Shown here: positions 3,477 through 64,000 of the stretch, one piece after another
Layout of the letters: every line of letters begins with the position of its first letter
Numbering within the stretch: position 1 is the stretch's first letter
NCBI GenBank assembly: GCA_037447655.1
Contig: JBBHKE010000905.1
Location: 147,149 to 211,148, forward strand
Source of the DNA: Zygnema cylindricum
Taxonomy: Eukaryota; Streptophyta; Zygnematophyceae; Zygnematales; Zygnemataceae
Direction of reading: 5' to 3'
DNA length: 64,000 nt
Position numbers and translations under genes: made by a program
Notes under the pieces: model-generated
Seen by the model: the letters and a program-made list of their open reading frames with translations, nothing else
Told to the model about the DNA's origin: nothing
The model's database searches: none

Positions 3477-3491
3477 GGTGGGCCCATAACT
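3477..3491 (-). promoter_or_regulatory. primer-binding site of element G (internal tRNA-iMet type)
   Basis: On the minus strand this reads AGTTATGGGCCCACC, one base off the GGTTATGGGCCCACC consensus found in every copia copy here. It is complementary to the anticodon arm of plant initiator tRNA-Met and lies directly after the LTR end. Confidence 0.8.
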
Positions 3492-4671
3492 TAAAACTCT
3501 AAGACCTCCAATTGTCCTCAAAGTAGGCAACTTACAAGAAGCTTATCTAGATAGTGACGACTTGAAGTGAATTTAAACCCAGCTCACTAACAATGTGATA
3601 GTCAAAATCCCAATATAAATTCACCCCTGTGAAAGAAGACTTTCTGTGTGCTTAGTTCCCCCACAGAATGCAAAGTACAAATATGAGAATTTGGACACAT
3701 TCACCAACTTTGACTTTCCCTAATAAATGCAACCACTCTGGCTGGCAAAAATTCTAATCGACTACAGCTATGTGTAGCATGGGCTCCGCTGAGTCTGCAG
3801 CAAAAATAATCTTTGAATTTGCTCCCTCAGCACTAAGTTATGGAGGGTCAAAGTTGAACTTTTGTACAGGAACTCTCTCGGAGAGAGGTGGCTACCTACT
3901 AAATTTTTGAAGTCCTATCTCTCTCTAAACTTTATCTACTGACGTACGGCACCAATCACATTAGTGTGTCGTACAAAAAAGTAAAGGTGTTGGTGTACTT
4001 TCTGTACGACCATCGTACTACATTGCCGAAATGTTGACACATGTCATATCAGGATTTGTTCCCGTAATCTCTCGAGTTGTCGTAATCCAATGTTGACACG
4101 CCACGTGTTTTTTGATGTGGCGATGACCGTAAAACCCCAAAAGTACACATTCCCCAATCGCGACGCCTATAGTGGCTGTGCGATCAAAACGTGATATATT
4201 TCTATCCGTTGAAAATAGACGCGCGGTATTTGTTTCGCGATCGAAACAAATGCGCGGTATCCGTTTCATATAAAAAACGGTACTCCGTACTATTTAAAAC
4301 TGTATCTATGCATTACATATCTCCTTCCTGTTAAACGAACTAGTCCACGTGTAACTATATAAATATTTATCAAACTCTATATACGTTAACACTGGTCTTA
4401 GACTTATACGATAAAGCTAACTGCTACTTTGACGGACGACTGGTACTAAGTTCAATTCTTGGGTCCGTCAAACCTTTTGTAACTCTATCAAAATTGGCCT
4501 TCCTGTCCTCTTTGGGCAGTCTAGGTAGCCATGGCTCTAACTCCAACTTTAGTCTTCAGTGATTGCGACAATATGGGGACTTGAGAGAAGAGTTAGAGGC
4601 AGGCTGTCACTGTCTCATTTTTGCCTTTTATTTTATAATCTCTAAACCTAGAAAATACTTGAATTTCAATA
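3492..4671 (-). repeat. 5' LTR of element G (subfamily II)
   Basis: About 1,180 bp, the partner of 448-1,629. The TG start has become TA (right end TTCAATA on the plus strand) and the CA end is also mutated. By eye it is clearly more diverged from the 448-1,629 LTR than that LTR is from its duplicate at 6,828. This suggests that the left LTR was homogenised or duplicated recently. Confidence 0.85.
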
Positions 4672-6200
4672 GTTGTTTTGCAAGCGTTCCTTTCCTATAT
4701 CCCATGTGGATCTCCTCTCCTAGTGCCAGAATGAAGATATCTTTGGGCAAATTATGGGACGAGGCTAGAGTTTTGACATGGGTGAGGGAGTAGGGCATCA
4801 GGTGCCTCACTAATATAATAGCAGGTTTGGAGGATTGAGGTTGATAATTAGGCGGTGAAATGGGGGAACCTTGTTCTTTCAGTTTCTCGTGCTCCTCCCC
4901 CCAGCTTTCTTATTTTCCGCGTCTGAATCTGATGCGGGCAGGGACTGTGGTGTATCGTTTCCCACGTGTTCTGCCAAGTATCTTTCAAACCAATCTTGGT
5001 TGCTCCTTTTCTCATTTTCCAATGTTTGTTTTTTAAGCCTTTTTTCTTTTCCCGCTTTGTAATTTTTGAAGCTGAGTAGAAGTTTCTTGGTGGTCCAGAG
5101 CGGTGGTTGTGTAGGTTTAATTTCGAGGCATATCTCTTAGTTCAGAATAACTGCCCCGGGAGTAAAAGATAACGGTCCAATGGCCTTTCGGTTATGGTCC
5201 CCTTGGGCTATTCTTTGTCTGTTTGTTCTCTGCACCGAGATGGAAGGATAAAGCTATCTGCGACTGTCTCCTACACCCACATTCCAGGCTCCGGATAAAA
5301 AGGATGGGGCATGGTGAGCTTTAGGGGGTCCCAAATTCCAACCCATTACATTGTCATCATCCCCACCCGCTATGGTCTGCTTTTCAAGCTCCGCAAGCAT
5401 CTGCAATAATTCCTATTTTTGTCGCAGGAGTTTCTGTGCTGCAGTCAGAGTGGAGGTTTTCAAACTGAGAGCATCAAATTCGGATGCCATGGCGGCCAAT
5501 TGTTAACTTTGTTGTTGAAATATCCTCTCTCGTGTGAGTGTTGGCGGGTTTGGAGGTGGCTCCGGTGTTTCAGTCGTGGGCTGAAAGCAACGCCCCCATG
5601 GGTAGAGGAGCAAAAGAGGGAGAGTGTTTATCGCAGTTTCTCCTTCTCCAGTGAACAAGGCGAATTGCATCATTTCTTTCGGTACCCCATTCTTGCGGAA
5701 GCATTGTTTTTCCAGGTGTCGTAGGAAGCCGCACGCGAAACACTTGGAACCTTTGGTTGTGTATTTCCCCCTGAGTTTTTGGACATCTGAGCATCATCGA
5801 ATTTTGGCAATTTTATTTGCCTCAACTGTGATTAAGACAATTTAGTAGTTTTAGATCGAGGAGTTGGGTGGTAATTCCCCTTGGTTACCAGTGTTCTGTC
5901 CCCCCCCCCCTTCTGTTTGTTTTCCCTCTTGCTGCCTATCCGTCTTTTCGGATCTTTCTTTCTCCCACTCTTTTTGCTTGAGTACAAGTTCGAGTTTGAG
6001 TTTCCGGGGGCAGCGTTGTTGTTCTTTGGTCTAAAATAGACCGCAGAAGCCACCCAAACTATCATGCAAGAAGCTAAGCGAAGCTAGGCCAATGAACAAT
6101 CATATGAAATGCATCCTCCATTTAACATACAACAACATTTTGTTGTTCTACAACCACCGGTGCAGGTGGAGGAGCAGCAGTAGTAGTAGAAGTAGACATG
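4672..6200 (-). pseudogene. decayed gag-like gene with CCHC zinc knuckle, family unknown
   Basis: Minus-strand remnant. An N-terminal MSTSTTTAAPPPAP segment starts near 6,198. A basic Lys/Arg-rich region lies at 5,850-6,010. A canonical CX2CX4HX4C knuckle (CFACGFLRHLEKQC) is encoded at about 5,710-5,755, followed by about 70 codons that stay open. A C/G homopolymer at 5,901-5,910 and a frameshift just before the knuckle break the frame. From 4,672 to 5,450 nothing is identifiable, although a Lys-rich acidic patch can be read near 4,900-5,060. It is likely gag or ORF1 of a retroelement, but no RT is attached, so the class is unknown. Confidence 0.5.
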
Positions 6201-10129: not shown

Positions 10130-11604
10130 TGTCATGCCGCATCTCGTCGGCCATTTTAGTTGTTTATATTTAGGTGTTAGGACGGGCATCCGCTACATTA
10201 ATTTGTATTTGGGGTTATTTGGGTTTCGCAGGACTGTACGACGTGTACCGTACGACCTACATTCTCCGTAATTTCCGGGATGACGATTTGGACCGTACCC
10301 GCGGTCCTACCGTACGACATATATTTTTTGCGATTTCCGCCGATAGTGGATTTGATTATTTCGCGTCGACCGTACGACTTACGTCGACCGGAATTCCCGC
10401 GGCCACAAATTGGACCGTACTTGCGGTCCTGCCGTACCTGTTTTTATTTTTTGGATTTTTGACGACAATGAATCGGGTCGATTCACGTCGACCGTACTTA
10501 TTTATTTTTTCCAAGATTTTTCGCCGACAACTTACGTTAAAATTCACGACGGTACAAATAAACTTACCGTACTATATACATTTTCCGCGATTCTCGCCGA
10601 CGATAATTTTGATCATTTCACGGCTATCGTACAAGCTTCCGCTCCCTTGAATCCAGGCCGACAACAAATTTTAATCATTTCCCGTGGAGTAGCATCTCGG
10701 CCGTCGACACAAAGTATGTAATTTTCGTAATATCACATCTGGACCGTCGACGCAAGTGACAGACAAATCGACTGTCAGTTTTGACGAAGCGACGTGATTG
10801 GACCATTTTAAGGCGTGAACCATTTGGAGGTTCACGCATTCACATGTAGATAGGAAGGGTTTTAATCTGTAGGTTATAGATTCTGTAACGTAGGGCATAG
10901 GATTTCGGCCTCCTATTGGCTGAATCCAAACTAGACGCAAATACTTACATAGCACGCTGTACTCTGATTGGCTTTTTTTCGCTAGGCGTAGTTTTTGTTA
11001 CTTAGTTCATTTTGGATCATTTCATGCACACAATTTTCAAGTGCAGGAATTATTCATTTTATTTATTTTCAGTATTGAGGATTTTCTGCAGCCATCTTTT
11101 ATTTGTAAAATTGTCCGAACAGCTTAGTGGCAATTTTCTGCCTTTGCGTGAAGCGTCTAGTTTTCTATCATATTATCAATATCTTGTAAAGCCTTACATA
11201 TTCATCTATGCGGCTTCGGCCAAGACCTACACGGTTTCCCTTCACTTTTCTCGTCATTTTTAGTGGATTTCGACCACGTTCTCACGACACAAACTTCTTT
11301 TCTCGGCTGTGGCTGAACTTTAATTAGTGTGGAAGTTGCATGTTGGGATTATTGATTTGTTGTTTTTATTTCTTGTGATTGTGTATTTATTTCTATTTGG
11401 CTTATGCGCATCTTTTGAGTTTGGCTATCTCAAACCTCATAAGTGTCGGGCATATTGTCATTTTCAGTTTTTATTTATCTTTCTCGGTTGTTTATGCTTT
11501 GATTTATTTTATTTAAGTATAAATTCAGATTATCCTTGATAAGATAACTCCTGCAAGGAATATAAATAGACCGTGGGGCCTAGTGGTCATCCATCGGCTT
11601 AGTA
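10130..11604 (+). repeat. gypsy terminal block A, copy 1 (U3-like, CpG-rich, with TATA box)
   Basis: About 1,475 bp starting TGTCATGCCGCATCTCG. The first 600 bp are CpG-rich and built of degenerate repeats around GACCGTAC boxes (about 10,288, 10,368, 10,411, 10,489). A perfect 9-bp-stem hairpin, GCGTGAACC / GGTTCACGC with a 7-nt loop, lies near 10,812. A TATAAATA box at 11,561-11,568 would place transcription start near 11,590-11,600. Other copies are at 23,162 (truncated) and 27,917. In the third copy A is followed by block B instead of the leader. Confidence 0.8.
11561..11568 (+). promoter_or_regulatory. TATA box of the gypsy element
   Basis: TATAAATA in a conserved context, GGAATATAAATAGACC, repeated at 29,349-29,356 in block A3. 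It is about 40 bp upstream of the point where the block A copies diverge. Confidence 0.6.
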
Positions 11605-12838: not shown

Positions 12839-14338
12839 TTGGAAATGGCTTCCACATCCGAGGGAGGGGGTCGCCTTCATTTCTGTTTTTCAAGAATGAA
12901 AGACACCGTGAGTTTATCGCATTTTCGAATGCTATTCGATACCGAAATTCGTGATCTTGCATTTCGGTACCAAGACCGGTTCGACCTACGGGTCGCTTTC
13001 TCTCTTTTAGGCCGTTACTTTCGCGGTTCAGCCCTTACTCTTTACTCCCGCAAGTATGATTTCGTACTTGCGATGACAGAGTTTTCTCCAGCTTTTGCTG
13101 GGGGTCCACCTATTATACGACAACCAGAAATTCCCTACCAACCGGCTATTCCGAAAGTCCTTGATCTCAACGGTGATGTTATTACAGCAGCAGTTGCGGA
13201 AATACCGCAACAGTTTGCTATAGCCGCACGTGTTGGAATCCCAGCACGACCAACGATGACGATCCCTATATTGGATCCGCTCTCGGTCATGTTTGAAATG
13301 TTGCAAGCGGAATACCGTATGCAAAACCCTGACCAAGTTCGTGAGTTAATGAACTTCGAACGGAAGTTAGGAGAGACCGCCCCTGCCATGCGTGCTCGCA
13401 TAGAAGCTCTTCGTGAAGCATTGCGGGACCTAATGTCGGATGCTGAAGCTGTCCAAAAATTTGTAGTACATTTTCCGAGTTAGTCTAAGAAATTTATTCA
13501 GAGTCACTTGACTCAAACGTACGGCTTGAAGTTCACTATCGACCAAGCCGCCCAAAATGCCGAGGAATACGAAATGCAAAATTGTTGGTGGGAAGCCCAT
13601 GACCATCCTAATGCCGTCCCGAAGAACCGATTATTCCACCATGGAACAATCCTCGTCCTAACAACCGGCCTCCTAAAGTCCCGGCCATGGGAACCCCACC
13701 TGATACTCCCGAAAACCGATTATGTTTTCGATGTGGGAAGACGGGGCATGATGCCCGAATGTGTCCAGACAAAACAGTTACCTGTACGCATTGCAAGCAA
13801 ACATGACACTACGTCCATCGTTGTCATATAAAGAACCCGGAAATTTCCTATCACAATCAAATTAAAAATGGTGGCATTCCCGCTCGATCCGCAAAACCCG
13901 TTCAACATGTTAAAGAACCGGAGAAGGACACCACTCCACCTTGGGTATCTCGATGAGAGAGAGAGAGCGTTAAAAAATGCAAGAGCAAATGGTGGCTATA
14001 ATGAAGGAACAATTCGCAGCCTTCATGACTCAAATGAAGCCACAATTTACATGCCTGGCTCGCACTCTTGTACACATGCCCACGTTGGCAAGTCGAATCT
14101 TACGAGATTCCACCATCCAACAACGAGAGGTTACCTTCGACAGAGGTTCGACCGATCACAGCCGTGACAATAAACTCTTAACACCCGCATTCCTTTGTCA
14201 TTCACTAAAGAACCTTCTCCTCCCTTGCCCGAAACCGCTTTAGCCATCGCGGCTGAAGCTCTCAACATAGTGGATCGAACTATACCTAAGGCACACCGCG
14301 TGAAGGAACGCTTGTGCATTCTATCCACTATGATTTCG
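12839..14338 (+). pseudogene. gypsy gag with zinc knuckle
   Basis: A first open stretch of 214 codons (12,839-13,483) has gag-like helical sequence, including QVRELMNFERKLGETAP and a DLMSDAEAVQKFVVHFPS block where a stop ends the frame. The sequence continues shifted from 13,508 (TYGLKFTIDQAAQNAEEYEM). A canonical CX2CX4HX4C knuckle (CFRCGKTGHDARMC) is encoded at 13,722-13,763, in a different frame from its surroundings. A Met/Gln-rich region follows (13,975-14,050). The gene is cut at 14,338 by the copia-LTR composite and resumes at 17,682. Gag would form particles and bind RNA. This copy has at least two frameshifts. Confidence 0.75.
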
Positions 14339-14452
14339 TGAAACTCTGAGACCTCCATAAGTCCTCAGAGTGGACAGCTTCTAAGAAGCCTCTAGGATAA
14401 CCCTGACCCCTTTGTGTTTCAGCAAAAACAACTGCCACCCTCGCAGACAATT

Positions 14453-15168
14453 GTAGAAATTAATGGTCTTTTTAAGTATCTTCTAGGTCTGAATAGAAAT
14501 ATAGAAAGAAGTCGAGGCAGTCTACCTCTAACTTCTCTCTCCAACTCTCAAACTTGTTGCAGTCACTAAGAAATTGGAGTGGAAGCTAGAGCCATGGATA
14601 CCTAGGCTATCCAGAGGTTTACGGGATATAAATATTAGTTTATTTATAATTAAGAATATATTTACTAAAATGTATATGCCACCTCCAAGAATTGAACCTG
14701 CAACCTGCCGGCCGAAAACCAGTCGGTAGCCGGTAGCTTTAAACCGTTAACTAGATAATGTTATGTATTATAGGGTTTGATATATAATTAAACATTTATA
14801 TATAGGATAGTTCTATTAACTGAAATAGTTTTACGGGGATATAGATCCAGTTATGTAAAAGTACGGATTACGGTGCGGATAAGAAACCAATACCGCGCAT
14901 TTATTTATTACGGCTACGAATAAATGTGAATTTAATCGGACGGCCGCAATTAACGCCGAGATCGCGGAGGAGGATTTCGGCAGTTTGTAGTCATCGCCAC
15001 ATCGGATGACACGTGGCAAAATTACATTGGATCGTGGTATCTCCGGAGATTACGGCACCAAATCCGGATATGAGATGTGTCGACATTTAGGCCATGTCGT
15101 ACAATGTCCGTACAAAAAGTACACTTGCAGCTGTACTTTTGTGTACCGAGGAGTAATCTGATTGGCTT
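14453..15168 (+). repeat. truncated copia LTR, plus strand (subfamily I)
   Basis: Starts TGTAGAAATTAATGG and ends abruptly after CTGATTGGCT, lacking the last 330 bp or so of the family LTR. It includes the GTAC hairpin and an ACACGTGGC G-box. Confidence 0.8.
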
Positions 15169-16080
15169 AATGTGCCCATTCAAATAGGTGTTCGCTTCCA
15201 TTGGCGAATGTTATATAATTTATACAAGAGCAACCCGACAAACTTTATTTGAACAAATTGGATCTAAGGTGGTAGCCCCACGTCTGTCTCATCTCATTTC
15301 CATAATCAGTATGTCTTATATTCCATAAACAATAACCTACATCCTTAAAACTCACACAAAAAACAAGACTTAAATGACCTCAAAAACTGACAAAATACAA
15401 AACATATACTACGAAAAGGATGAGTTGTATTCCACAAACAATAACCTGCATCCTTAAAACTCACACAAAAAACATGACTTAAATGACCTCAAAAACCGAC
15501 AAAATACAAAAAATATACTACAAAGAGGATGCCTTACATTCCATAAACAATGACTTGCACTCTTAAAACTCACACAAAAAACATGACTTAAATGACCTCA
15601 AAAACCGACAAAATACAAATCATATACTACGAAGAAGTTTCGATATAGTGCCTCTTCACAGTCGCCTTTGCATCTATCGACGAATTTCATATAATTTACA
15701 CAATCAATCCTACAAACTCTATTTCAATAAATTTGAATCCGAGGAGCTAGCTCTATGTTTGTTTCAATTCCATAGTTCGAAAGTCTTCTAATCCATAAAA
15801 AATGACCTACATCCTTATCAGACACAAAAGCAAAGGAAGCATATATTAAATACACGTCAAAACAGAGCTCATAATGCTTAGGGTGTTTGGTTAGATTTGC
15901 AACTGCTCATTCTTAATATGAACTGTTGATGGTTTTTTCAAATATACAATCTTTGTTGTGGTCTATTAAATTACAGGTGAAAGAAACATGTCAAAAATAA
16001 CCCTTTAAAATTAAACCTTACTTACTGCGTGTTTTTAGTAGTTCACTCTGCGCTTAGCACACTACAATTTTAGACCCATT
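15169..16080. repeat. non-LTR segment with tandem repeats
   Basis: Three tandem units of about 109 bp occupy 15,310-15,637. Each contains CCTTAAAACTCACACAAAA and AATGACCTCAAAAAC. The flanks 15,178-15,335 and 15,650-15,820 also resemble each other at roughly two-thirds identity by eye, so the region is a larger, older repeat unit. No coding sequence was seen. Confidence 0.7.
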
Positions 16081-16621
16081 TCTCATTTTTCACTTTCATT
16101 TCTTCAAGTTTTATTTCCCCTTCTCGAATTGCAACCATAAGTTCTTCTCTCTCATTTTCTTTCTATTTTTGTTCCCATTTATCTTCTTCGTCTTTGCGTC
16201 GACAGTCAATGTCAAAAACTAGTGGACGCTCGATCGACTTTGTTTTGGGATTGTTAAACCTTTGTAACGCCTCTATTTTCTCTTTGTCAAATTGATCCGC
16301 CTTAAAGATAATACTAGAAATTCTTCCCACCAACCAATTTAAATCATCATTTCTTTGGGACGAGGCATTGTTTTCTTCATCCTCACGAACTCCTCTAATT
16401 TTTGTTCATACAAGGTTCGAGAATTTTGATACATCGGCACTAAATTGCGAGAATGGTGGTTGTTTTCATGCTATATCTTGTTTTGGTTGGCGCACAGATT
16501 TCTTGCTCTCCGGCAAGGTGAACACTTCTATAACCCTCTCTTCTGTAATGTTAAGAGCCCCCCCCCACATTTCGCACTCTCCTTCATCTTCATCAACGTT
16601 GCTTTTTTGCCTCTTGCACCA
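16030..16621 (-). pseudogene. decayed coding fragment of unknown family next to an LTR
   Basis: On the minus strand one reading frame runs from the LTR edge at 16,621 to about 16,050, interrupted by only three stops (two TGA, one TAG). It encodes roughly 180 residues: an acidic patch (SNVDEDEGECEMWGG), NNASSQRNDDLNWLVGRISS, FDKEKIEALQRFNNPKTKS, then a charged, probably coiled-coil tail (REELMVAIREGEIKLEEM). It is not copia gag and has no knuckle. It could be a captured host-gene fragment or a transposon-borne gene. I do not recognise it. Confidence 0.5.
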
Positions 16622-17676
16622 TGAAACTGTGAGACCTCCATAAGTCCTCATATTGGACAGCTTCCAAGAAGCCTCTAGGATAACCCTCACCCCTTTGTGT
16701 TTCAGCAAAAACAACTGCCACCTTGGCAAACAATAACTCTGACCACCTTCACCGTTGTAAAGGCAAGACTCCCATGAGTCGATAGCAAAAAGAATCTCTG
16801 AATTTGCTCCCCTGAGCAGTAAGTTATGGAGGGTCAAAGTTGACCTTTTGTACATAAGCTCTCTAGGAGTGAGGGTACTATCTCCTAATTTTTCTAAGTC
16901 CTATCTCTCTCACACACTCTATCTACTGATGTACGGAGCCAATTAGATTACAGTTCCGTACAAAAAAGTACAACTGCTGGTGTACTTTCTGTACGGACAC
17001 TATACAACATGGCCTAAATGTTGACACGTGGTATGTCCGGATTCGCTCCCTTAATCCTCGAAGATGCTGCGATCCAATATCATTCCGCCACGTGTCATCC
17101 GATGTGGCGATGACCAAAAACTGCCGAAATCCTCTTCCGCGATCTCGACGTTAATTCCGGCCGTCCGATTAAATTCACATTTAATCGTAGCCGTCATGAA
17201 TACATGCGCGGTATTCATTTCATTAAAGAAATAAATGCGCGGTATTGGTTTCTTATCTGTACCATAATCCGTACTTTTACATTACTGGATCTATGTCTCC
17301 CGTAAACAGTTTCAGTTAAATAAACTATCCTATGTATGAATGTTTAATTAAATATTAAACCATATTATACGTAACACTAGTTGAAGACTTAACGGGTAAG
17401 GCTATTGGCTACCGGCTGTCTACCGTCCGGTAGGTACCACGATCAAATCTTGTGGCCGGCACATAACTTTTAGCAAATAAACCCCTAACTAATATTTATT
17501 TCTGGTAAACCTCTGGATAGCCTAGGTAGCCATAGCTCTAGCTCCCTCTCCAATTTCTCAGTGACTGCGACAAGTTTGAGAGTTGGAGAGAGAAGTTAGA
17601 GGTAGACTGCCTCGGCTTCTTTCTATGTTTCTAATTTGACCTAGAAAATACTTTAAATGGACCATTTATTTCTACA
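16622..17676 (-). repeat. complete copia LTR, minus strand (subfamily I)
   Basis: 1,055 bp, from TGAAACTGTGAGACC to the right-hand terminus CCATTTATTTCTACA. It carries all landmarks of the family (G-box, GTAC hairpin, antisense B-box). Unlike intact elements it is not followed by the internal tRNA-iMet primer-binding site. Confidence 0.85.
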
Positions 17677-17681
17677 TTTCC

Positions 17682-18550
17682 GACTCACCAAAAATCTCCC
17701 CTGTGTCGTTTACCTCCGAAAGCTCAGCTGCAGCTGCCACGTTACAAGCACTTTAGCTGCACATAAATCTGGCTCCTATTCAGCCTATTTCCATAGAGGA
17801 GGGAAAGTCCCTCTATCCTCACATCAGTTTTTTGGATAACGGGAAGGGTGTTTTGTTGATCAATGGTATAGCCCCTTCCCTGCCTCTCATAGATATGGGT
17901 GCAAAGCCGGTGATATTGGGCTCTAGCTTTGCACTTAAGCTTGGTCTAACTCCGGACAAGCCTCAATCCACTTCTACTCGCTTGTTAACATCAGCGGGTA
18001 CAACCGAGCTAGTCCTTGGAATCACTAAGGAACCGCTTGTTTTCAGGTTCCAGAACAAAACGGCCATGGACTTTGCTGAAATCTCGGTTCACGCTCTAGT
18101 CACTAAATGTAGTGACTATGAATGCCTAGTGGGACAAGACGTTATATTTCGTGTAGGGGGTGGAGTTGACATGCATGATCAGACATTTTCTTATAGGCCC
18201 ACTAACTTCCCAGAACGCAAAATCTGCATTCCGCTAATTTCCGCTAGGAAGCCCATGCCAGTTATGGCAAATTCGGCCACATCCATACCTGCATTTTCAG
18301 GGAATTCAGTGGGGGCCGAAATATTTCATTCATTGTCAGCAGAAGAAATTCTGCCTGATAGTTTTTACTTACCAAAATTTTTTAGTGACCCAGGTTTTCT
18401 TATAGATATAAAGGAATTTGACCGAATCTATAACCAAACCTTGTCAGTTCCATTTTTTCTGGTCACTCCTACAATCCTAGTCCCTACAAACTCTTCTGGG
18501 TTTATTCCCTTTAATTGGAATCCGGTCCAATTGAAACCTCATCCAAATGG
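17682..18550 (+). CDS. gypsy protease-like region
   Basis: Open from 17,832, and readable upstream through one stop. It encodes GVLLINGIAPSLPLIDMGA followed by KPVILGSSFALKLGL. This is the retropepsin active-site loop with the usual Thr or Ser after Asp replaced by Met, so catalysis is doubtful. The flap-to-C-terminal pattern LVGQDVIFRVGGGVDMHDQ follows, then FSYRP and KICIPL. Retropepsins cut the Gag-Pol precursor. The segment from GGGVDMHDQ onward is repeated at 18,930-19,090. The frame continues directly into the methyltransferase domain. Confidence 0.65.
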
Positions 18551-18925
18551 AGTGGTGATTTTGGACCTCTTCGCTAGAATAGGCACTTCCCTTCTTGCAT
18601 GTTTGCGGAATGGATTATTAATCTGATTTTATTATTTGGTTGAGATTGATCCGTTAGCACGGAAAGCACAATTACATCATTGTAATCTGTTGCATTCCCA
18701 ATACCCGCATTTGTTACCAAAATCTGCATACGAGCATATGCATATTGCCCTCCCACAAGACATTCGGATTGTGGGTAACCATCACTTACTAGATATTGGT
18801 CCAATCAATCTAGTTTTTGGCGGATGGGAGTGCCAGGGAATGTCGAGGGCCGGGAAAGGTCTCGGATTAGCCGATCCCCGCACCAAATTATTTTTTGAGT
18901 TGGTTCGCATCCTACATTTTTTACA
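18545..18925 (+). pseudogene. cytosine-5 DNA methyltransferase domain, N-terminal half (motifs I-IV)
   Basis: Motif I (SAM binding): VVILDLFARIGTSLLACL at about 18,549-18,605, where the FAGxG glycine has become Arg. After a stop and frame step the sequence continues as VEIDPLARKAQLHHCN (motif II-type acidic residue), then DIRIV and INLVFGGWECQGMSRAGKG. The last is motif IV with the catalytic Cys kept in a WECQ context where most enzymes have PCQ. LADPRTKLFFELVRILHFLQ follows. Motif order (I before IV) is canonical, unlike the permuted order of plant DRM enzymes. Position, strand and decay match the flanking gypsy pol, so it is part of the element. In related enzymes this domain transfers methyl groups to cytosine in DNA. 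The two halves are now separated and this copy is inactive. Confidence 0.85.
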
Positions 18926-19090
18926 AATCGGTGGAGGAGTAGATATGCATGATCAGACCTTCTCCTACCGTCCCTCTAATTTTCCCGGTCGCAAAATCTG
19001 CCTCCCTCTTGTCTCTGCTCGCAAGCCGTTGCCCACTATGGCATTTTTGGCTTCCGCTCTCCCTTCATTTTCGAGTATCGAACTTCGAGA
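18926..19090 (+). repeat. duplicated protease-tail segment splitting the methyltransferase
   Basis: Encodes GGGVDMHDQTFSYRPSNF and ARKPLPTMAFLASALPSF, a diverged copy of 18,160-18,300. It lies where motifs V-VIII of a methyltransferase should be. Either a rearranged copy was inserted here with loss of the intervening motifs, or recombination joined two different element copies. Confidence 0.75.
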
Positions 19091-19594
19091 AGACAATGGC
19101 GACTCGTTTTTCTCGGAAAGGATCCATAACGTCGACACCGAGGTCTTCGTTGACTCCGTGAGGCCAACTTGTTTGTTCGTCCTCCTCCTACAAACATTCA
19201 GGCTGCCCTTCTTCCTTTCCATAAGGTGCAGCGTTGCATTCAAAAGGAATGTCCCCCTAATTTCAGTGTCAATGTACCGGGTCAACCTCTCAAGTTGCTT
19301 CCTACCTTAGTTTCTTACCCACATTCACATGCATTCTCTAATGACGGTCCTGGCATGCTCCGAAACATTCACACCGGTGAGCTCGAAGAGCCCACCTCTA
19401 CGGAACGAGAACATCTAATGCATTTCATTCCTGGCACTACAGCCGCTCCTGGTCTTACAGAACGTCAAAGGTGCACTTTATTAGGTCGTGTCATGGACCC
19501 TCAGTCTTTGTCTTTTGTTTTAGGTTTGCAGCTGGTCGCCACTCTCAGGCACATCCGTCTTAACCAGCTGGGGGGGGGGGGAATGCATCACTAA
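19091..19594 (+). pseudogene. cytosine-5 DNA methyltransferase domain, C-terminal half (TRD, motifs IX-X)
   Basis: Best read in the frame open at 19,169-19,594: NFSVNVPGQPLKLLPTLVSY, HAFSNDGPGMLRN, then EEPTSTEREHLMHFIPGTT and AAPGLTERQRCTLLGRVMD. The second part is the motif IX/X pattern (an R/E-P-T-x-x-E-R-x-x-L-M-x-F block, a G-T-T turn, then R-x-x-L-L-G). Known biology: retrotransposon-encoded cytosine methyltransferases have been reported in dinoflagellates and charophyte algae. The frame ends in a run of 12 G. Motifs VI and VIII were not found. Confidence 0.8.
19570..19581 (+). other. internal run of 12 G resembling the terminal polypurine tract
   Basis: CAGCTG, then 12 G, then AATGC. 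The element's terminal tract at 22,956-22,968 reads GGCTGGGGGGGGGAATAA. The same CTG-G(n)-AAT context occurs twice in one element. Confidence 0.5.
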
Positions 19595-20028
19595 GAAAAT
19601 ATTTCCGTCCCACTCTCCAAGGGACTACATTTCAATTTTTCCTCTTTCCTTCTCCAATTCCACCAGTTTCGGAAATCTCTATTTACGATTTCCTCAATCC
19701 TCCCCATATGTCCTGGTCTATCCTTGCATACACGGCTGTCCAGTCTACAAGTTTCATTTAGATACCACCCACTCCTCATTGGAGTGCTGCTTTCCCAACA
19801 CGTAGTTGGAATCATTCGGTTGATTGCCTTAAACAATCACCTCTAGCTTACGAGATAGGTTGAACGCTTATCGCAGATGAGCAGTTAGCCTTTGCACAAG
19901 CTATGGAAGCTATGACAACCGAAAATTCTGATGCTCCTAAATGGAAAATCGGCACCAATCTAACAAAGGCCTAACAAGAGTTTCTGAATGATGTAGTTTT
20001 TCGAAATATTGATGCCTTTGCCTTTTCT
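19595..20028 (+). pseudogene. pre-RT linker of the gypsy pol
   Basis: Mostly unassignable at 19,595-19,860. From 19,863 a pol-like frame can be read up to the RT, including FAQAMEAMTTENSDAPKW and FLNDVVFRNIDAFAFSMNDL with one TAA stop. This matches the usual gypsy lead-in before the RT fingers. Confidence 0.5.
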
Positions 20029-21561
20029 ATGAACGATTTGGGTTGTCACACCTGTTATAAGATGTCGATAGATCTCGAAGATGATCGCCCGATATTTAAA
20101 CCTAAACATCGTTTGTCAGAAACTGAATGGGAAATGGTAGATAATCGATGTGCTGAACTAGAGGAAGCTGGCCTAATCTATCGGTCTGACTCCACATTTG
20201 CAGCTCCCACTGTTATGCCTCGGAAAAAGGATTCTGAGGGTAATTTTAGTGAACGTCGAATGTGTGGTGACTATCGTGAACTAAATGCTAAAACGGTTCA
20301 AGATCGTCATCCCATGCCTCTTGCCGGTGAAATATTTGATCACGTAGGCGGAGCAAAGTATTTTAGTATCCCTGACCTCCGTCAGGGATTCAATCAAATT
20401 GAGATAGAGGAAAAAAACCGGCAAAAAACTGCCTTTTGGGGTACCGACGGCCGATGGGAATGGGCCGTAATGCCATTCGGACTGAAAAATGCTCTGGTAG
20501 TATTTCAAAAAGTCATGGACTCCATTGTTAGAGGTTGTAAGTTTGCTAGATGTTACATCGATGACCTCATCATTGCCTCGGCTACTATCGAAGAGCACGC
20601 TGCTCACATCGAATGGGTATTGACTGATTTAAAAAAGGTCGGATTAAAATGTCATCCAACGAAATGCACCTTTGGAGCCGAGGGAGTGCCTTATCTCGGC
20701 CATTTTATCTCGGTTGAGGTGATCACTCCTGTCGAAGCAAAGGTAGAGGCAATCAGTAAATTGCATACTCCCACGGACCTAACAAGTCTGCGAGCTTTTC
20801 TCGGACTTGCTAATTATTGTCGCAGGTTTGTATCTAATTTTAGCACCATCGCATCACCGTTATACGACTTTCTTAAGAAGGAAGTGGCGTTTATATTGGG
20901 TCCCGATCAGATTTCCGCATTTCAAAAATTAAAAACCGTCTTATCGAGTGCTCCAATTCTCTGTCCTCCCAATCACAAACTCTCTTTTTGTCTCCAAATA
21001 GATTTTGGGAAACCCGGAATTGTTGCTATCTTGACACAAAGAGAGTTGAGCGGAGAGGAATACGTGGTTGCTTACGCGAGTAGAAGCAATAACCGGGCTG
21101 AATCAAATTATAGTAGCTACGAAGGAGAGTGTCTCGCCGCGGTTTGGGGAGTCGTTCACTTCCGCCATTATTTGTACGGAAAACCTTTCACACTCTTAAC
21201 TGACCATCAACCCTTACATTGGCTGATGACGAACGATAGGCTTTCTGGGAAGCTAGCCCGATGGGCTTTAATCTTACAAGAACATGACGTTGAAATAATT
21301 CACCGACCCGGTCTGCTTAGTCTAAACGCAGACGAAATTTCACGAAATCCTTTCCCCGAACGACAGATAACGGAGTCCGACAAGATTTCGATGACGACAA
21401 TGTTCCCGTCATGTCAATGGGTTCTTATCTTACTTACTGCCTGGCGTCTATTCCGAACCCCCGTCGCGCCACAGATCCTTGGCGTGATGGGCCTCTCATT
21501 CTTTTCTTATCCACCCAAACCTTCAGGTCCGGCACTACCTCTGATGAAGAAGACAGAGTGA
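20029..21561 (+). CDS. Ty3/gypsy reverse transcriptase and RNase H
   Basis: The longest open frame of the window (510 codons). RT landmarks: RMCGDYRELNAKTVQDRHPM, a palm region GAKYFSIPDLRQGFNQIEI (the first catalytic Asp is in PDLRQG), WAVMPFGLKNALVVFQKVMD, and YIDD at 20,554-20,565. The thumb and connection follow (YLGHFIS, LRAFLGLANYCRRFV). RNase H covers about codons 320-440, including YSSYEGECLAAVWGVVHFRHYL and LLTDHQPLHWLM; its first acidic site reads QIDFGKPG where TDAS is usual. The frame is shifted after about codon 455 (21,400), and integrase continues in another frame. The enzyme copies element RNA into DNA inside the particle. Confidence 0.9.
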   Translation: MNDLGCHTCYKMSIDLEDDRPIFKPKHRLSETEWEMVDNRCAELEEAGLIYRSDSTFAAPTVMPRKKDSEGNFSERRMCGDYRELNAKTVQDRHPMPLAGEIFDHVGGAKYFSIPDLRQGFNQIEIEEKNRQKTAFWGTDGRWEWAVMPFGLKNALVVFQKVMDSIVRGCKFARCYIDDLIIASATIEEHAAHIEWVLTDLKKVGLKCHPTKCTFGAEGVPYLGHFISVEVITPVEAKVEAISKLHTPTDLTSLRAFLGLANYCRRFVSNFSTIASPLYDFLKKEVAFILGPDQISAFQKLKTVLSSAPILCPPNHKLSFCLQIDFGKPGIVAILTQRELSGEEYVVAYASRSNNRAESNYSSYEGECLAAVWGVVHFRHYLYGKPFTLLTDHQPLHWLMTNDRLSGKLARWALILQEHDVEIIHRPGLLSLNADEISRNPFPERQITESDKISMTTMFPSCQWVLILLTAWRLFRTPVAPQILGVMGLSFFSYPPKPSGPALPLMKKTE

Positions 21562-22770
21562 AAAACAGGGCCAAAAGTTACCTTTGGCTCGGAGGATCTT
21601 TAGTTCGGTTACTAGCAGACGGAAGCCATAGACACGTCCCTCGTCCTACCGAGCGACTTTCCCTAATTGAGAAAATTCACACCGAGCTTGGTCATTACGG
21701 TACCAAGCGGACGTTAAGTCTAGTTCAGGCACGGTATTGGTGGTCAGGAATGCAAGCCGATGTTGCTGCTATTCTACACAAGTGTGCTACCTGTGATCGT
21801 CTCCGAACTTCGTTCTCCAACCAGCAGACTACGCTCCAACCTCTACCCATTAGGGGTTTATTTCTATCGACGGTCGGTCGATCTGGCCGGACCTTTTCCC
21901 ATCTCACGTAGAGGGAAAACAATATATTATGATTATGATTGAAAATTTCAGTAAGTGGGTAGAAGTAGTAGCATTACCTCATAAGATAGCTAAGTAAACC
22001 ACCAGAGCTTTTAAGGAACATGTCCTTATGAGATACGGTGCCCCAGCCGAGGTCCTTACGGATCAAGGTACATAATTTCGGGGAGAATTTCAAAAGATGC
22101 TTGATAAGGCTCTCATCGATCATCGTCGTACTAGTCGGGATCACCCCCAGGCCGATGGCCTGGCTGAACGGGCAGTCCAGACATTTAAGCGTGCCTTGCG
22201 TAAGCATTGCTTAGAGAAACACATTTCGGTTTGGGACGAGTCCCTCGGCTACATTACCATGGGATATCGCATGTCAGTTCAGGCTAGTCTGGCTAATTTC
22301 AGCCCGTATTATGTTTTATTTGGGCGACAACCGTTGCTCGGTCGCAATATTCAGAAAGCTGCAAGCTTTCCACTTTCGCTGATGTCTGACACTATCTTTT
22401 TGGAAGAACTCACTCGTCGTGCTTTGCTTTTTTCCCGTGAAATGCCCATGGCTTTTGATAACCTGCAGATTGCTCAGCATCGCGACACACTTCGGTGTGC
22501 TACCACTCGAAGCGGCAGTTACAGGCCGCAACAGAAGCCCTATCGGGTGGGAGACTATGTTTATCTTCGCAGGCAATCTTTCGACACTTTGGACATTGAC
22601 GTTTCTGCACACATCCTACGGATCATTGAGGTGGATTGGAACGGAATGTTGGGATTACAAGGAGCGGACACACGGACTTTTCGAGAGCACTCCAAAAATT
22701 GTGCTCCATGTTACTTACCCGATTTGTCGCATGATATGGATCTTATGCGGATGCTGATTACGATGGCGAC
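21562..22770 (+). pseudogene. gypsy integrase
   Basis: HHCC zinc-binding domain at about 21,660-21,800 (IHTELGHYGTKRTLSLVQAR, then HKCATC). The catalytic core continues in shifted frames. First Asp in SVDLAGPFP (about 21,870), second Asp in VLTDQGT (22,052-22,072), and Glu in ADGLAERAVQTFKRAL (about 22,150-22,200). The core up to LFGRQPLLG is open in the 22,097-22,951 frame, followed by a C-terminal DNA-binding region (VGDYVYLRRQSFDTL). Integrase joins the cDNA ends to target DNA. Stops near 21,997 and 22,075 and at least one frameshift disable it. Confidence 0.85.
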
Positions 22771-22951
22771 GGCATGTACCTTTTGTAATCGATCGGACGG
22801 GGAAACTACCATGTTACTTTGTGATCATTACAATCAGGGGTTTTACATGGAGTATTTGGTGCCACCATTGTTGGCAGTTCCAGATGGTCACTGGTTTTGT
22901 CACGGATTTCGCGAGCTTCGGGTCGTGTTGGCCAGCTCCTCTGCCGGCTAA
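22771..22951 (+). pseudogene. degenerate PHD finger at the integrase C-terminus
   Basis: In frame with integrase: CTFCNRSDGETTMLLCD, then HYNQGFYMEYLVPPLL, then AVPDGHWFCHGF. The PHD pattern C-x2-C ... C-D ... W-x-C is clear, as are the PPL..VP.G.WFC landmarks. Four of eight zinc ligands are replaced (three Cys to Tyr or Phe, the His to Tyr), so the fold is probably lost in this copy. PHD fingers read histone H3 tails. In the chromovirus branch of gypsy elements a chromodomain sits at this place and steers integration to chromatin marks, so an equivalent targeting role is inferred. Confidence 0.8.
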
Positions 22952-22955
22952 AGGG

Positions 22956-22968
22956 CTGGGGGGGGGAA
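22956..22968 (+). promoter_or_regulatory. polypurine tract of the gypsy element
   Basis: GGCTGGGGGGGGGAA directly after the pol stop. In a standard element the 3' LTR begins immediately after such a tract. Here block B (TAAACTGACC) follows, then block A. Confidence 0.65.
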
Positions 22969-23159
22969 TAAACTGACCTAACCATAACCAGCTAAGTCGT
23001 TGACCTTTCTTTTCCTTTCACCTTGCCTGTTGTTATATTTATTCATTTTTCTCTTTCATGTCTTATTTCATTCACAATATATTTTCTTTGTTAGGGTTTA
23101 AGTGGAGCATAGTTGATGATATTCCATGCATCTTCATGTTATTTGATACATTCACGACA
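22969..23159 (+). repeat. gypsy terminal block B, copy 1
   Basis: About 190 bp, from TAAACTGACCTAACC to GATACATTCACGACA. Near-identical to 29,393-29,584. Two bases (GC) separate it from the start of block A2. Confidence 0.8.
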
Positions 23160-23161
23160 GC

Positions 23162-23763
23162 TGTCATGCCGCATCTCGTCGGCCATTTTAATTGTTTATA
23201 TTTAGGTGTTAGGACGGGCAGCCGCTACATTAATTTGTATTTGGGGTTATTAAGGTTTCGCAGGACTGTACGACGTGTACCGTACGACCTACATTCTCCG
23301 TAATTTACGGGATGACGATTTGGACAGTACACGCGGTCCTACCGTACGACATATATTTTTTGCGATTTCCGCCGATAGTGGATTTGATTATTTCGCGTCG
23401 ACCGTACGACTTACATCGACCGGAATTCCCGCGGCCACAAATTGGACCGTACTTGCGGTCCTGCCGTACCTGTTTTTATTTCCCGGATTTTGGACAACAA
23501 TGAATCGGGTTTGATTCACGTGGACCATACTTATTTATTTTTTCAAAGATTTTTCGCCGACAACTTACGTTAAAATTCACGACGGTACAAATAAACTTAC
23601 CGTACTATATACATTTTCCGCGATTCTCGCCGACGATAATTTTGATCATTTCACGGCTATCGTACAAGCTTCCACTCCCTTGAATCCCGGCCGACAACAA
23701 ATTTTAATCATTTCGCGTGGAGTAGCATCTCGGCCGTCGACACAAAGTATGTAATTTTCGTAA
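23162..23763 (+). repeat. gypsy terminal block A, copy 2 (truncated)
   Basis: About 600 bp collinear with 10,130-10,735, then broken after GTAATTTTCGTAAT. The following bases are not block A. Confidence 0.85.
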
Positions 23764-23990
23764 TTATCGGCACTTTACTAGTTTTAATAGCAGCCGCTCT
23801 TAGCGCCTTTTACATATATCATGCCATTCAAATAAACATGGCAGCACTTAAAATTGCATTCAACAGCCGCTTTTTAGAAACTTTTTTATTTATTCATACC
23901 AGGTGCACTTAGTTTGGGCTAAGTAACAACAGGTTTTAGGCCCTTTATTTTTGTCCATGCCGTCCTGGCGTTCATGCCAGGTTAAACACC
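23764..23990. other. unassigned sequence next to the gap
   Basis: AT-rich, no gene. Contains several GCCGCT and ATGCCA words. It could be LTR or UTR sequence of the minus-strand gypsy fragment to its right. Confidence 0.3.
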
Positions 23991-24000
23991 NNNNNNNNNN
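23991..24000. other. assembly gap (10 N)
   Basis: Ten undetermined bases. The true distance and content between the two sides are unknown. Confidence 0.99.
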
Positions 24001-27916: not shown

Positions 27917-29584
27917 TGTCATGCCGCATCTCATCGGCCATTTTAGTTGTTTATATGTCGGTGTTAGGACGGGCAGCCGCTACACTAATTTGTATTTGGG
28001 GTTATTTGGGTTTTGCAGGACTGTACGACGTGTACCGTACGACCTACATTCTCCGTAATTTCCGGGATGACGATTTGGACCTTACCCGCGGTCTTACCGT
28101 ACGACATATATTTCCCGCGATTTCCGCCGATAGTGGATTTGATTATTTCGCGTCGACCGTACGACTTACGTCGACCAGAATTCCCGCGGCCACAAATTGG
28201 ACCGTACTTGCGGTCCTGCCGTACCTGTTTTTATTTCCCGGATTTCCGACGACAATGAATCGGGTCGATTCACGTCGACCGTACTTATTTATTTTTTCCA
28301 AGATTTTTCGCCGACAACTTACGTTAAAATTCACGACGGTACAAATAAACTTACCGTACTATATACATTTTCCGCGATTCTCGCCGACGAAAATTTTGAT
28401 CATTTCACGGCTACCGTACAAGCTTCCATTCCCTTGAATCCCGGCCGACAACAAATTTTAATCATTTCGCGTGGAGTAGCATCTTGGCCGTCGACACAAA
28501 GTATGCGATTTTCGTAATATCACATCTGGACCGTCGACGCAAGTGACAGACAAATCGGCTGTCAGTTCTGACGAAGCGACGTGATTGGACCATTTTAAGT
28601 CGTGAACCATTTGGAGGTTCACGCATTCACATGTAGATAGGAAGGGTTTTAATCTGTAGGTTATAGATTCTGTAACGTAGGGCATAGGATTTCGGCCTCC
28701 TATTGACTGAATCCAAACTAGACGCAAATACTTACATAGCACGCTGTACTCTGATTGACTTGTTTTCGCTAGGCGTAGTTTTTGTTACTTAGTTCATTTC
28801 GGATCATTTCCTGCACAAAATTTTCAAGTGTAGGAATTATTCATTTTATTTATTTTCAGTATTAAGGATTTTCTGCAGCCATCTTTTATTTGTAAAATTG
28901 TCCGGACAGCTTAGAGGCAATTTTTCTGCCTTTGCGTGAAGCTTCTAGTTTTCTATTACATTATCAATATCTTGTAAAGCCTTACATATTAATCTATGCG
29001 GCTTCGGCCAAGACCTACACGGTTTCCCTTCACTTTTCTCCTCCTTTTGAGTGGATGTCCACCGCGTTCTCACGACACAAACTTCTTTTCCTGGCTTTGG
29101 CTAAACTTTAATTAGTGTGGAAGTTGCATATTGGGATTATTGATTTGTTGTTTCTATTTCTTGTGATTGTGTATTTATTTCTATTTGGCTTATGCGCATC
29201 TTTTGAGTTTGGCTATCTCAAACCTCATAAGTGTCGGGCATATTGTCATTTTCAGTTTTTATTAATCTTTCTCGGTTGTTTATGCTTTGATTTATTTTAT
29301 TTAAGTATAAATTCAGATTATCCTTGATAAGATGACTCCTGCAAGGAATATAAATAGACCGTGGGGCCTAGTGGTCATCCATCGGCTTAGTAATAAACCG
29401 ACCTAACCATAACCAGCTAAGTCGTTGACCTTTCTTTTCCTTTCACCTTGCTTGTTGTTATATTTATTCATTTTTCTCTTTCATGTCTTATTTCATTCAC
29501 AATATATTTTCATCGTTAGGGTTTAAGTGGAGCACAGGTGATGATATTCCATGCATCTTCATGTTATTTGATACATGCATGACA
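27917..29584 (+). repeat. gypsy blocks A3 and B2 joined (solo unit)
   Basis: Block A (27,917-29,392), complete through the TATA box (29,349-29,356) and CGGCTTAGTA, is followed without leader or coding region by block B (29,393-29,584), which ends GCATGACA next to the copia gag. Length 1,668 bp, with termini TGTCATGC and GCATGACA. It looks like a solo terminal repeat or an internally deleted derivative. Left flank TAGGA and right flank TAGTG do not form a clean TSD. Confidence 0.75.
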
Positions 29585-63244: not shown

Positions 63245-63705
63245 CTAATATAACCACTTCTTACAACCTGGAGATCCACAATGGCATTTTTTGTTTACAA
63301 TATTGCCATGCTCGTCGAGTACCGAATCTATTTTGTAGTTATAATCGTAAGTCAACTCTCTCAAAGGAGGAATATTGTCGGCCGCAAAAAAAGCAATACG
63401 AGGCAACCTCATATCATGGTGGTCATTGAAGATACATTGTGTAACAACATTTGGAGCGCAACTATGGTTCATAAACCGTGCCACATTTCCAGAATCATTG
63501 GCGTCCACACAAAATTTGGCCTCCTCAAATTCTTGAAGGGCACTGATAGGTTGACCTTTAACTCCAAGAAGGTCAGATACGTCTCCCCATCGATCGCGAC
63601 TACCTTTAACCAAATCTAAATTAAAGAGGTATTCGTCTTTCCCTTTCAATGCCTCCGCGTCCTCGTCATTGTATACTATCCCCGTATATTCGCATATAAA
63701 AGAGC
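63245..63705 (-). CDS. SUVH-type histone H3-K9 methyltransferase, last exon (SET and post-SET)
   Basis: About 154 codons. SET landmarks in order: SFICEYTGIVYNDEDAEAL, DEYLFNLDL, RWGDVSDLL, FCVDANDSGNVARFMNHSCA (SAM-pocket NHSC, intact), then FFAADNIPPLRELTYDYNYK (catalytic Tyr region ELTYDY), then the post-SET zinc cluster CHCGSPGCKKWLY before the stop. The VLDEHGNIVNKKCHCG tail and DEYLFN point to the SUVH4/5/6 clade, but 4-like and 5/6-like features are mixed, so no symbol is given. The exon starts at a splice acceptor (minus-strand TTTTTTGGCAG then GCTCTTTTATATGC), so the Gly codon is split by the intron. SRA and pre-SET exons must lie beyond 64,000. The enzyme methylates H3K9 and maintains silencing with CMT-type DNA methylation. 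Confidence 0.9.
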
Positions 63706-64000
63706 CTGCCAAAAAACAACAAAAGTCGTTGAAAAACAACAAGCACAGAAGCAACAACAAGATTGCATACCCCAAAACAAAACTACTTAACCAATCCTCA
63801 CAGCTATAGAACCACTAAAGATACCCCTTGAAATCCCCAGACTTCAGGGAAACGCTGAGAGACATTCGGCTCACAACAACGATCCATAACAACAATAGCA
63901 GATCGAAGAAGGATAGAAGCTGCACTCGCTGAAGTTTTTAGAGCCGTCACAGTCTCCAAAAGTTTGAGATAAAAAACAAATCCTCATATTCCCTTCACGG
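63706..64000 (-). other. intron (or upstream gene sequence) of the SUVH gene
   Basis: A polypyrimidine-rich stretch and GGCAG acceptor precede the last exon on the minus strand. No pre-SET or SET N-terminal coding sequence was recognised up to the window edge, so this is probably intron, at least 295 bp long. Confidence 0.55.

Follow-up and report, generated by a model that had tools for sequence, protein, structure and literature searches.

The 64,000-nucleotide stretch of DNA analysed here (the window) comes from the zygnematophycean alga Zygnema cylindricum (GenBank assembly GCA_037447655.1, contig JBBHKE010000905.1, positions 147,149 to 211,148 of the forward strand). A large Ty3/gypsy retrotransposon family is represented in it by a decayed and recombinant copy, in which a C5 cytosine methyltransferase is located between the gypsy protease (PR) and reverse transcriptase (RT). 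A first-pass annotation had placed a methyltransferase with motif I, a motif II-type VEIDP, motif IV and a motif IX/X block at 18545-19594. All of these motifs are present there on the + strand, with the gypsy PR on one side and the RT on the other, and the profile searches described below bear the identification out.

The methyltransferase domain in the window

The N-terminal half of the domain (18552-18926, + strand) carries motifs I, II and IV (GWECQG), motif I being followed by an in-frame TGA, and is recognized both by Pfam and by a family profile. PF00145 matches the open reading frame (ORF) at 18636-19310 with an E value of 8.7e-7 and 29.1 bits, against a Pfam cut-off of 22; this is the significant C5-methyltransferase hit that the first-pass annotation had proposed to look for. 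The family hidden Markov model (HMM; 321 profile positions), built from eight relatives with the window left out, matches 18627-19307 with 108.5 bits (profile positions 27-125) and 19154-19591 with 100.3 bits (positions 199-317). These are its only strong matches in the 1272 six-frame ORFs of at least 30 amino acids, and the top score in ten triplet-shuffled windows is 7.3 bits. Motif I by itself (18552-18623) scores 6.2 bits; when the stop is read as X, the whole N-terminal stretch reaches 132.7 bits over profile positions 1-125. The C-terminal half (19175-19531, +; the end of the target-recognition domain and motifs IX and X) accounts for the 100.3-bit match and is 53% identical to the relative P0033; its ORF on its own has no match among PDB chains at E 1, nor a fitting one in Pfam. 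For ORF 18636-19310 the top-ranking PDB sequence match is DNMT3A (E 1.7e-4).

The window copy is dead. Its in-frame TGA splits motif I from the VEIDP motif, the IX/X block lies in a frame other than that of the N-terminal half, and motifs VI-VIII (profile positions ~126-198) are missing. Their place is taken by a second, diverged protease-end segment (18924-19142, +; tblastn of residues 107-171 of the window PR, E 9e-23). Within it, 18930-19072 repeats 18156-18298 directly over 143 nt at 71% DNA identity, so the segment came from a diverged relative; template switching would be the simplest way for it to have been acquired. The motif IV Cys is retained and motif VI is gone. Because motifs VI-VIII are gone, this copy cannot be an active enzyme, and the earlier suggestion that the element could methylate its own complementary DNA (cDNA) or the host fails for the window copy; self-methylation of cDNA may still apply to the family, as argued below.

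A standing domain of the family

The host genome (353 Mb in 2689 contigs) contains many such sequences. PF00145 yields at least 123 scored places of 782 candidates, all 123 above the cut-off, with native genes not separated out. The methyltransferase of one family member, used as query, yields at least 143 scored loci of 1600 candidates, each covering at least 216 of the 268 query residues with an E value no worse than 1.1e-113 (C1157, which is in two pieces, excepted). Both counts are lower bounds, and some loci may be assembly duplicates: C308, C366 and C624 have identical RT scores, and the coding sequences of C1344 and C1407 hardly differ. How common elements of this kind can be is evident from this host, where the matching loci number well over a hundred.

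Eight copies were selected by their methyltransferase match, mostly for long frames, and read over 13-13.5 kb each in two separate stretches. All eight have the order gag-PR-methyltransferase-RT-RNase H (RH)-integrase (INT), which the first-pass annotation had expected of intact copies, with a PHD finger added after the integrase. Domain spacing is nearly constant in six of them, extra sequence being found in C82 and C232, and C1344 has a single open frame of 2395 residues from gag to PHD (2355 within the longer stretch read). A sample ranked by RT gives the same picture: in all 31 copies examined among the best 40 of 142 listed RT matches, methyltransferase sequence is present, whether complete, broken or as a remnant. 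A listed methyltransferase lies within 3.5 kb upstream for 23 of these best 40; six of the other 17 were read, and five have most of the domain in broken frame, while the sixth, C2216 (L111), has the C-terminal end only. C2216 is a methyltransferase-deleted derivative in which the protease is joined to that end, the frame staying open to the end of the stretch adjoining the RT. In C1955 the C-terminal part of the domain lies behind a stretch resembling a copia long terminal repeat (LTR), and the window copy, with its two halves, is also counted among the 31. Both samples thus support the C5 methyltransferase as a standing domain of this gypsy family, and go against the possibility, raised at first pass, that it is an unrelated insertion in a family whose other copies lack it.

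Synonymous differences between subfamilies are saturated (proportion pS 0.77-0.85 in the methyltransferase); the corresponding nonsynonymous proportion pN is 0.10-0.16 in the methyltransferase, 0.13-0.18 in PR and 0.04-0.09 in RT. The methyltransferase is therefore under purifying selection. Over the computable pairs, with the decayed C82 left out, the median ratio of nonsynonymous to synonymous divergence (dN/dS) is 0.19 for the methyltransferase (6 pairs), 0.14 for RT (6) and 0.36 for PR (3). The catalytic residues were counted in the 30 best-scoring host loci, a sample that favours conservation: the catalytic Cys is found in 30/30, the Glu and Asn of motif VI in 29/30 each, and the first and second Arg of motif VIII in 26/30 and 22/30.

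Motif IV is unusual. Other C5 methyltransferases have Pro-Cys here, as seen in the aligned bacterial and DNMT3 rows; 28 of the 30 best-scoring copies of the window's family have Glu-Cys. The same variant occurs in the liverwort record P0128, in the moss-type P0021, P0125, P0126, P0127 and P0129, in P0133 and P0135 and in P0080 from Closterium, with Pro-Cys in P0130, P0131, P0134, P0136-P0138 and L016. A second methyltransferase-bearing gypsy family of the same host (L051-L053, L056 and L058; in L056 the methyltransferase is in one frame with the RT) has Pro-Cys, so that both variants coexist in one genome.

Affinity of the enzyme

By profile, tree and predicted fold the enzyme is closest to DNMT3. 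The family profile finds DNMT3 at 1e-20, DRM2 at 4e-9 and DNMT2 at 8e-9 to 6e-7; PF00145 scores among the relatives reach 48.8 bits. The methyltransferase trees contained no plant DNMT3, DRM, CMT or DNMT1 rows; one was built without the short P0053, P0080, P0084 and P0098, and another also without P0115 and 11 of the 15 IMG/VR rows. A DRM identity is rejected, as the first-pass annotation had already judged for simple capture of a DRM gene: motif order is canonical in the window and the relatives (I before IV and IX/X), the circularly permuted order was not found in them, and DRM2 trails DNMT3 by the E values just given. In structural alignments the element methyltransferase is ~18-25% identical to DNMT3A/3B/3C, from which it differs in sitting within a polyprotein and in carrying the Glu-Cys variant. 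One further C5 methyltransferase, L002 (IMGVR_UViG_3300027850_000092), branches beside DNMT3 and the retroelement enzymes and not with the other prokaryotic and viral rows.

Relatives in other organisms

The apparent presence of methyltransferase-bearing gypsy elements in land plants rests on two sequence records: P0128 from the liverwort Calypogeia fissa, with PR and methyltransferase, and P0132 from the moss Sphagnum magellanicum, a deleted derivative with a PHD finger that carries the methyltransferase and is 93% identical to P0021 over 26% of the 315-residue query. Among Closterium records the domain is present in P0053, P0062, P0075 and P0080, and in P0024 by 35 residues only. It lies after RNase H, not before RT, in P0084 from Volvox reticuliferus (where it is cut by the record end) and in P0098, P0057, P0070 and P0115; the last matches the HMM with 89.7 bits, and no Pro-Cys or ENV motif was found in it.

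In the 104 RT proteins of the clade, the methyltransferase is upstream of RT in 8 and after RNase H in 5; one has at least 200 upstream residues without it, 19 lack it in at least 250 residues after RNase H (their upstream part being too short), and 71 are too short to tell. With the five downstream cases excluded, seven records have at least 200 upstream residues and six of these carry the methyltransferase; the seventh, P0092, falls in the clade with the domain after RNase H. On the RT tree, 12 changes are required to account for the 12 methyltransferase-labelled rows. Shuffled labels require no more, which is what truncated records lead one to expect, and a single gain can therefore not be read from the RT tree by itself. 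The RT relatives, together with a SUVH4/6-like exon in the window, point to a host of the streptophyte line.

L016 (CADCWO010000201.1) is a 9285-bp contig filed under a metagenome-assembled genome (MAG) of Synechococcales (cyanobacteria). It has a gag-like region with zinc knuckles (read by eye), a PR and methyltransferase frame and then, in phase, RT-RH-INT-PHD, the PHD finger being intact (E 4e-10). The sequence TAG CAA TCA (3480-3500) ends the intact PR-methyltransferase frame, in phase with the intact RT-INT-PHD frame. That context fits the CAR-YYA readthrough motif, and the TAG is likely a readthrough stop; the methyltransferase would then be made at the Gag level and RT only by readthrough. 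The two ends of the contig share a 127-bp overlap, which is what one expects of a collapsed repeat or a circle. Like P0131, a retrotransposon sequence filed under an Obscuribacterales MAG, L016 is probably misbinned contamination from an alga or plant.

Layout, repeats and integration

The window element extends beyond the span first annotated. Its left terminal repeat A (10130-11604, +) begins TGTCATGCC and is 96.5% identical to 23162-23764 and 96.1% to 27917-29392. The gag region (12839-13603, +; tblastn of the P0127 gag, 25% identity, E 4e-15) is 63-92% identical to the eight host copies and is separated from PR by an insertion at 14339-17676 in which pieces of a copia-type LTR are found. 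The aspartic protease region (17799-18197, +) matches PF13650 at E 0.002, below the cut-off, and the P0127 PR at 32% identity (E 5e-16); it is 74-92% identical to the PR of seven host copies, with C783 matching in two pieces at 45 and 81%. Its catalytic triplet is DMG, against DTG in P0127, P0128 and P0130. RT and RNase H follow the methyltransferase at 19897-21351 (+; PF00078 E 1e-25, PF17917 E 4e-32; 54% to P0133), and then an integrase with an H2C2 zinc finger (PF17921 E 6e-16) and a degraded DDE core (21366-22450, +, the end being approximate). The PHD finger at 22775-22903 (+) is degraded (PF00628 E 4.7e-4, below the cut-off), and 21914-22900 is 50% identical to the integrase-PHD part of L016. 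A G-rich, polypurine-like tract (22953-22966, +), with a G run at the equivalent place in C1915 and C1344, directly precedes terminal repeat B (22967-23159, +; 96% to 29392-29584). A second, truncated copy of repeat A follows (23162-23764, +), with a 10-N gap at 23991. The repeats of the window are thus A, B and partial A; a further A-B unit stands alone at 27917-29584, with no clear target duplication. Repeat A at 10130-11604 and this A-B unit are CpG-rich (observed/expected 1.5 and 1.4), other measured stretches lying at 0.5-1.1.

Five of the eight host copies show the full pattern A-coding-B-A-B. In C1915, counted from the methyltransferase start, A is at -5059, followed by the coding part, B at 4386, A at 4580 and B at 6054, both repeat pairs being 99.5% identical; in C1344 the A pair is 100% identical over 931 bp and the B pair 99.6%. 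The pattern is less well preserved in C232, C2526 and C449. C1407 has B...B only, C82 only a 74% match outside the pattern, and in C783 repeats were not found within the stretches read. The element ends are TGTCATGC...GCACGACA. Three of the five copies with both ends mapped have 4-bp target duplications, read by eye (CCCT in C1915, TTGG in C1344, CCAT in C232); none was seen in C449 or C2526. The B-A junction (window 23150-23170; C1915 and C1344) holds a palindrome, GACAGCTGTC, identical in two subfamilies, and possibly marks where integrase acts on a circular intermediate.

DIRS elements have a tyrosine recombinase and make no target duplication. A DIRS assignment is rejected on the 4-bp duplications of three copies and on the integrase domains matched: H2C2 in the window, and both H2C2 and rve in L016. 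Assignment to Ty3/gypsy follows from the PR-RT-RH-INT order with a gypsy RT in all eight host copies, and from Pfam. The combination of split repeats with a gypsy-type integrase and 4-bp duplications raises a question about reverse transcription and circular intermediates.

Known elements of this kind

The first-pass annotation, which took the element for a land-plant one, named dinoflagellates and charophyte algae as groups with reported methyltransferase capture by retrotransposons and knew of no description in such a plant lineage. The kind is already published: excerpts of de Mendoza et al. 2018 (PMC5890265) describe a Gypsy-Dnmt3 element, KnitGypsy-Dnmt3, from Klebsormidium nitens. It shares with the family described here the domain composition of an LTR Gypsy element, a Dnmt3-related, non-rearranged methyltransferase in the Pol frame, a DIRS-like repeat arrangement (given in the figure legends as that of a DIRS element, A-coding-B-A-B) and purifying selection on the methyltransferase (text and Fig. 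4 legend). Compared with that published description only, domain order matches in 8/8 host copies and the repeats in 5/8. KnitGypsy-Dnmt3 differs in host lineage, and those excerpts do not mention for it a PHD finger, a Glu-Cys motif IV or 4-bp duplications. The two probably share a common descent. The dinoflagellate SymbioDIRS-Dnmt3 and SymbioLINE-Dnmt (PMC5890265, in part) are likewise retrotransposons with a captured C5 methyltransferase; in contrast to the host family, a gypsy family with integrase matches and target duplications, the former is a DIRS element with a tyrosine recombinase and the latter a LINE. Orchid Ty3/gypsy elements with an N6-methyladenosine (m6A) RNA demethylase domain (PMC9289625, in part) are a further case of a nucleic-acid-modifying enzyme captured by plant gypsy elements, though with another enzyme, in another lineage and by an acquisition called recent there.

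In the portion of Morozov et al. 2019 used here (PMC6338049), such transposons are stated not to be present in land plants such as tracheophytes; as far as land plants go, the liverwort and moss records contradict that statement. The words methyltransferase and PHD do not occur in the main text of a survey of plant LTR retrotransposons (PMC6317226), and a 2025 study, in the part drawn on (PMC12344493), refers back to the cases described in 2018 from streptophytes and dinoflagellates. Searches of open-licence papers turned up no report of methyltransferase-bearing retrotransposons in mosses or liverworts.

What the methyltransferase may do

Methyltransferases of this kind normally serve cells in silencing jumping genes; here a jumping-gene family carries one. 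What is observed directly is the domain and where it sits, how many copies there are, the conservation of its motifs, the purifying selection and the 4-bp target duplications. The reading that we put forward, with belief and doubt about evenly balanced, is of a Gag-Pol with a DNMT3-like methyltransferase and a PHD finger, in which the former methylates the element's cDNA in the particle and the latter helps to choose the integration site. The Gag-Pol polyprotein would carry the methyltransferase into the particle, where it would methylate cytosines in the newly made double-stranded cDNA. Any benefit to the element would come from the new copy bearing the mark of host-like or heterochromatic DNA by the time it enters the nucleus, and the PHD finger would act by reading histone H3 tails.

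Several observations weigh against cDNA methylation. Heavy CpG self-methylation should lower CpG, and no such loss is seen: the observed/expected ratio of the coding part is 0.90-0.96 for the eight host copies, and the window has 0.87 in the pol part and 1.5 in repeat A (three neighbouring copia stretches have 0.65-0.71). This content speaks against heavy CpG methylation with deamination and is compatible with non-CpG targets, RNA targets or recent activity. The KnitGypsy-Dnmt3 enzyme had no activity in yeast, a result that its authors call inconclusive (PMC5890265, in part). Glu for the usual Pro of motif IV might impair catalysis. Stops interrupt the methyltransferase in all but 13 of the 30 best-scoring loci, and among these 13 dN/dS has a median of 0.42 (range 0.10-0.65; 18 of 78 pairs with finite dS), the higher values stemming from pairs among L059, L062, L070, L072 and L073. 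Finally, C2216 has lost most of the domain and its frame still runs open from PR towards RT, so that single copies can do without it.

Undepleted CpG would suit a methyltransferase that acts on RNA or an RNA-DNA hybrid (genomic RNA or primer tRNA), its Glu-Cys reflecting a changed substrate, and RNA targets have been proposed for SymbioLINE-Dnmt (PMC5890265, in part). The motif IV Glu of the host copies recurs in the relatives from the liverwort, in those of moss type and in one from Closterium, and the Cys and motif VI Glu-Asn are retained in Glu-Cys relatives where that part is present. We nevertheless consider an RNA target unlikely: profile and fold are nearest DNMT3, the RNA enzyme DNMT2 being far weaker (8e-9 to 6e-7), and Pro-Cys relatives, likewise upstream of RT, coexist in the same host. 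Equally unlikely, in our estimate, is that the domain is retained for something other than catalysis, for instance to bind cDNA or host chromatin or as a structural part of the polyprotein. P0115, with its HMM match and no Pro-Cys or ENV motif found, and the open frame of C2216 speak for this; set against them are the Cys in 30/30 and motif VI Glu in 29/30 loci even though 17 of these copies have stops elsewhere, a count in which the choice of best-scoring loci favours conservation. Action mainly in trans on the host genome, raising nearby methylation or damping the family's own copy number, has been raised for dinoflagellates and would fit the high copy number and some long open frames; we think it quite improbable, since K. 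nitens, with its Gypsy-Dnmt3 elements, has land-plant-like methylation patterns (PMC5890265, in part).

Methylation of the element's own cDNA can be asked about directly, since young host copies exist (the A repeats of C1344, for example). A wider history, tentative and on balance doubtful, would have a DNMT3-like methyltransferase captured before the split of the main green-plant lineages and kept in algae, mosses, liverworts and this host. PHD reader, methyl writer and integrase would together give each copy its own epigenetic state, and the Glu-Cys form would be a working C5 methyltransferase with a non-canonical motif IV.

Elsewhere in the window, at 63248-63814 on the - strand, lies a SET-domain exon whose top PDB match is SUVH6 (E 2.8e-40); by sequence it belongs to a predicted host H3K9 methyltransferase gene, SUVH4/6-like.
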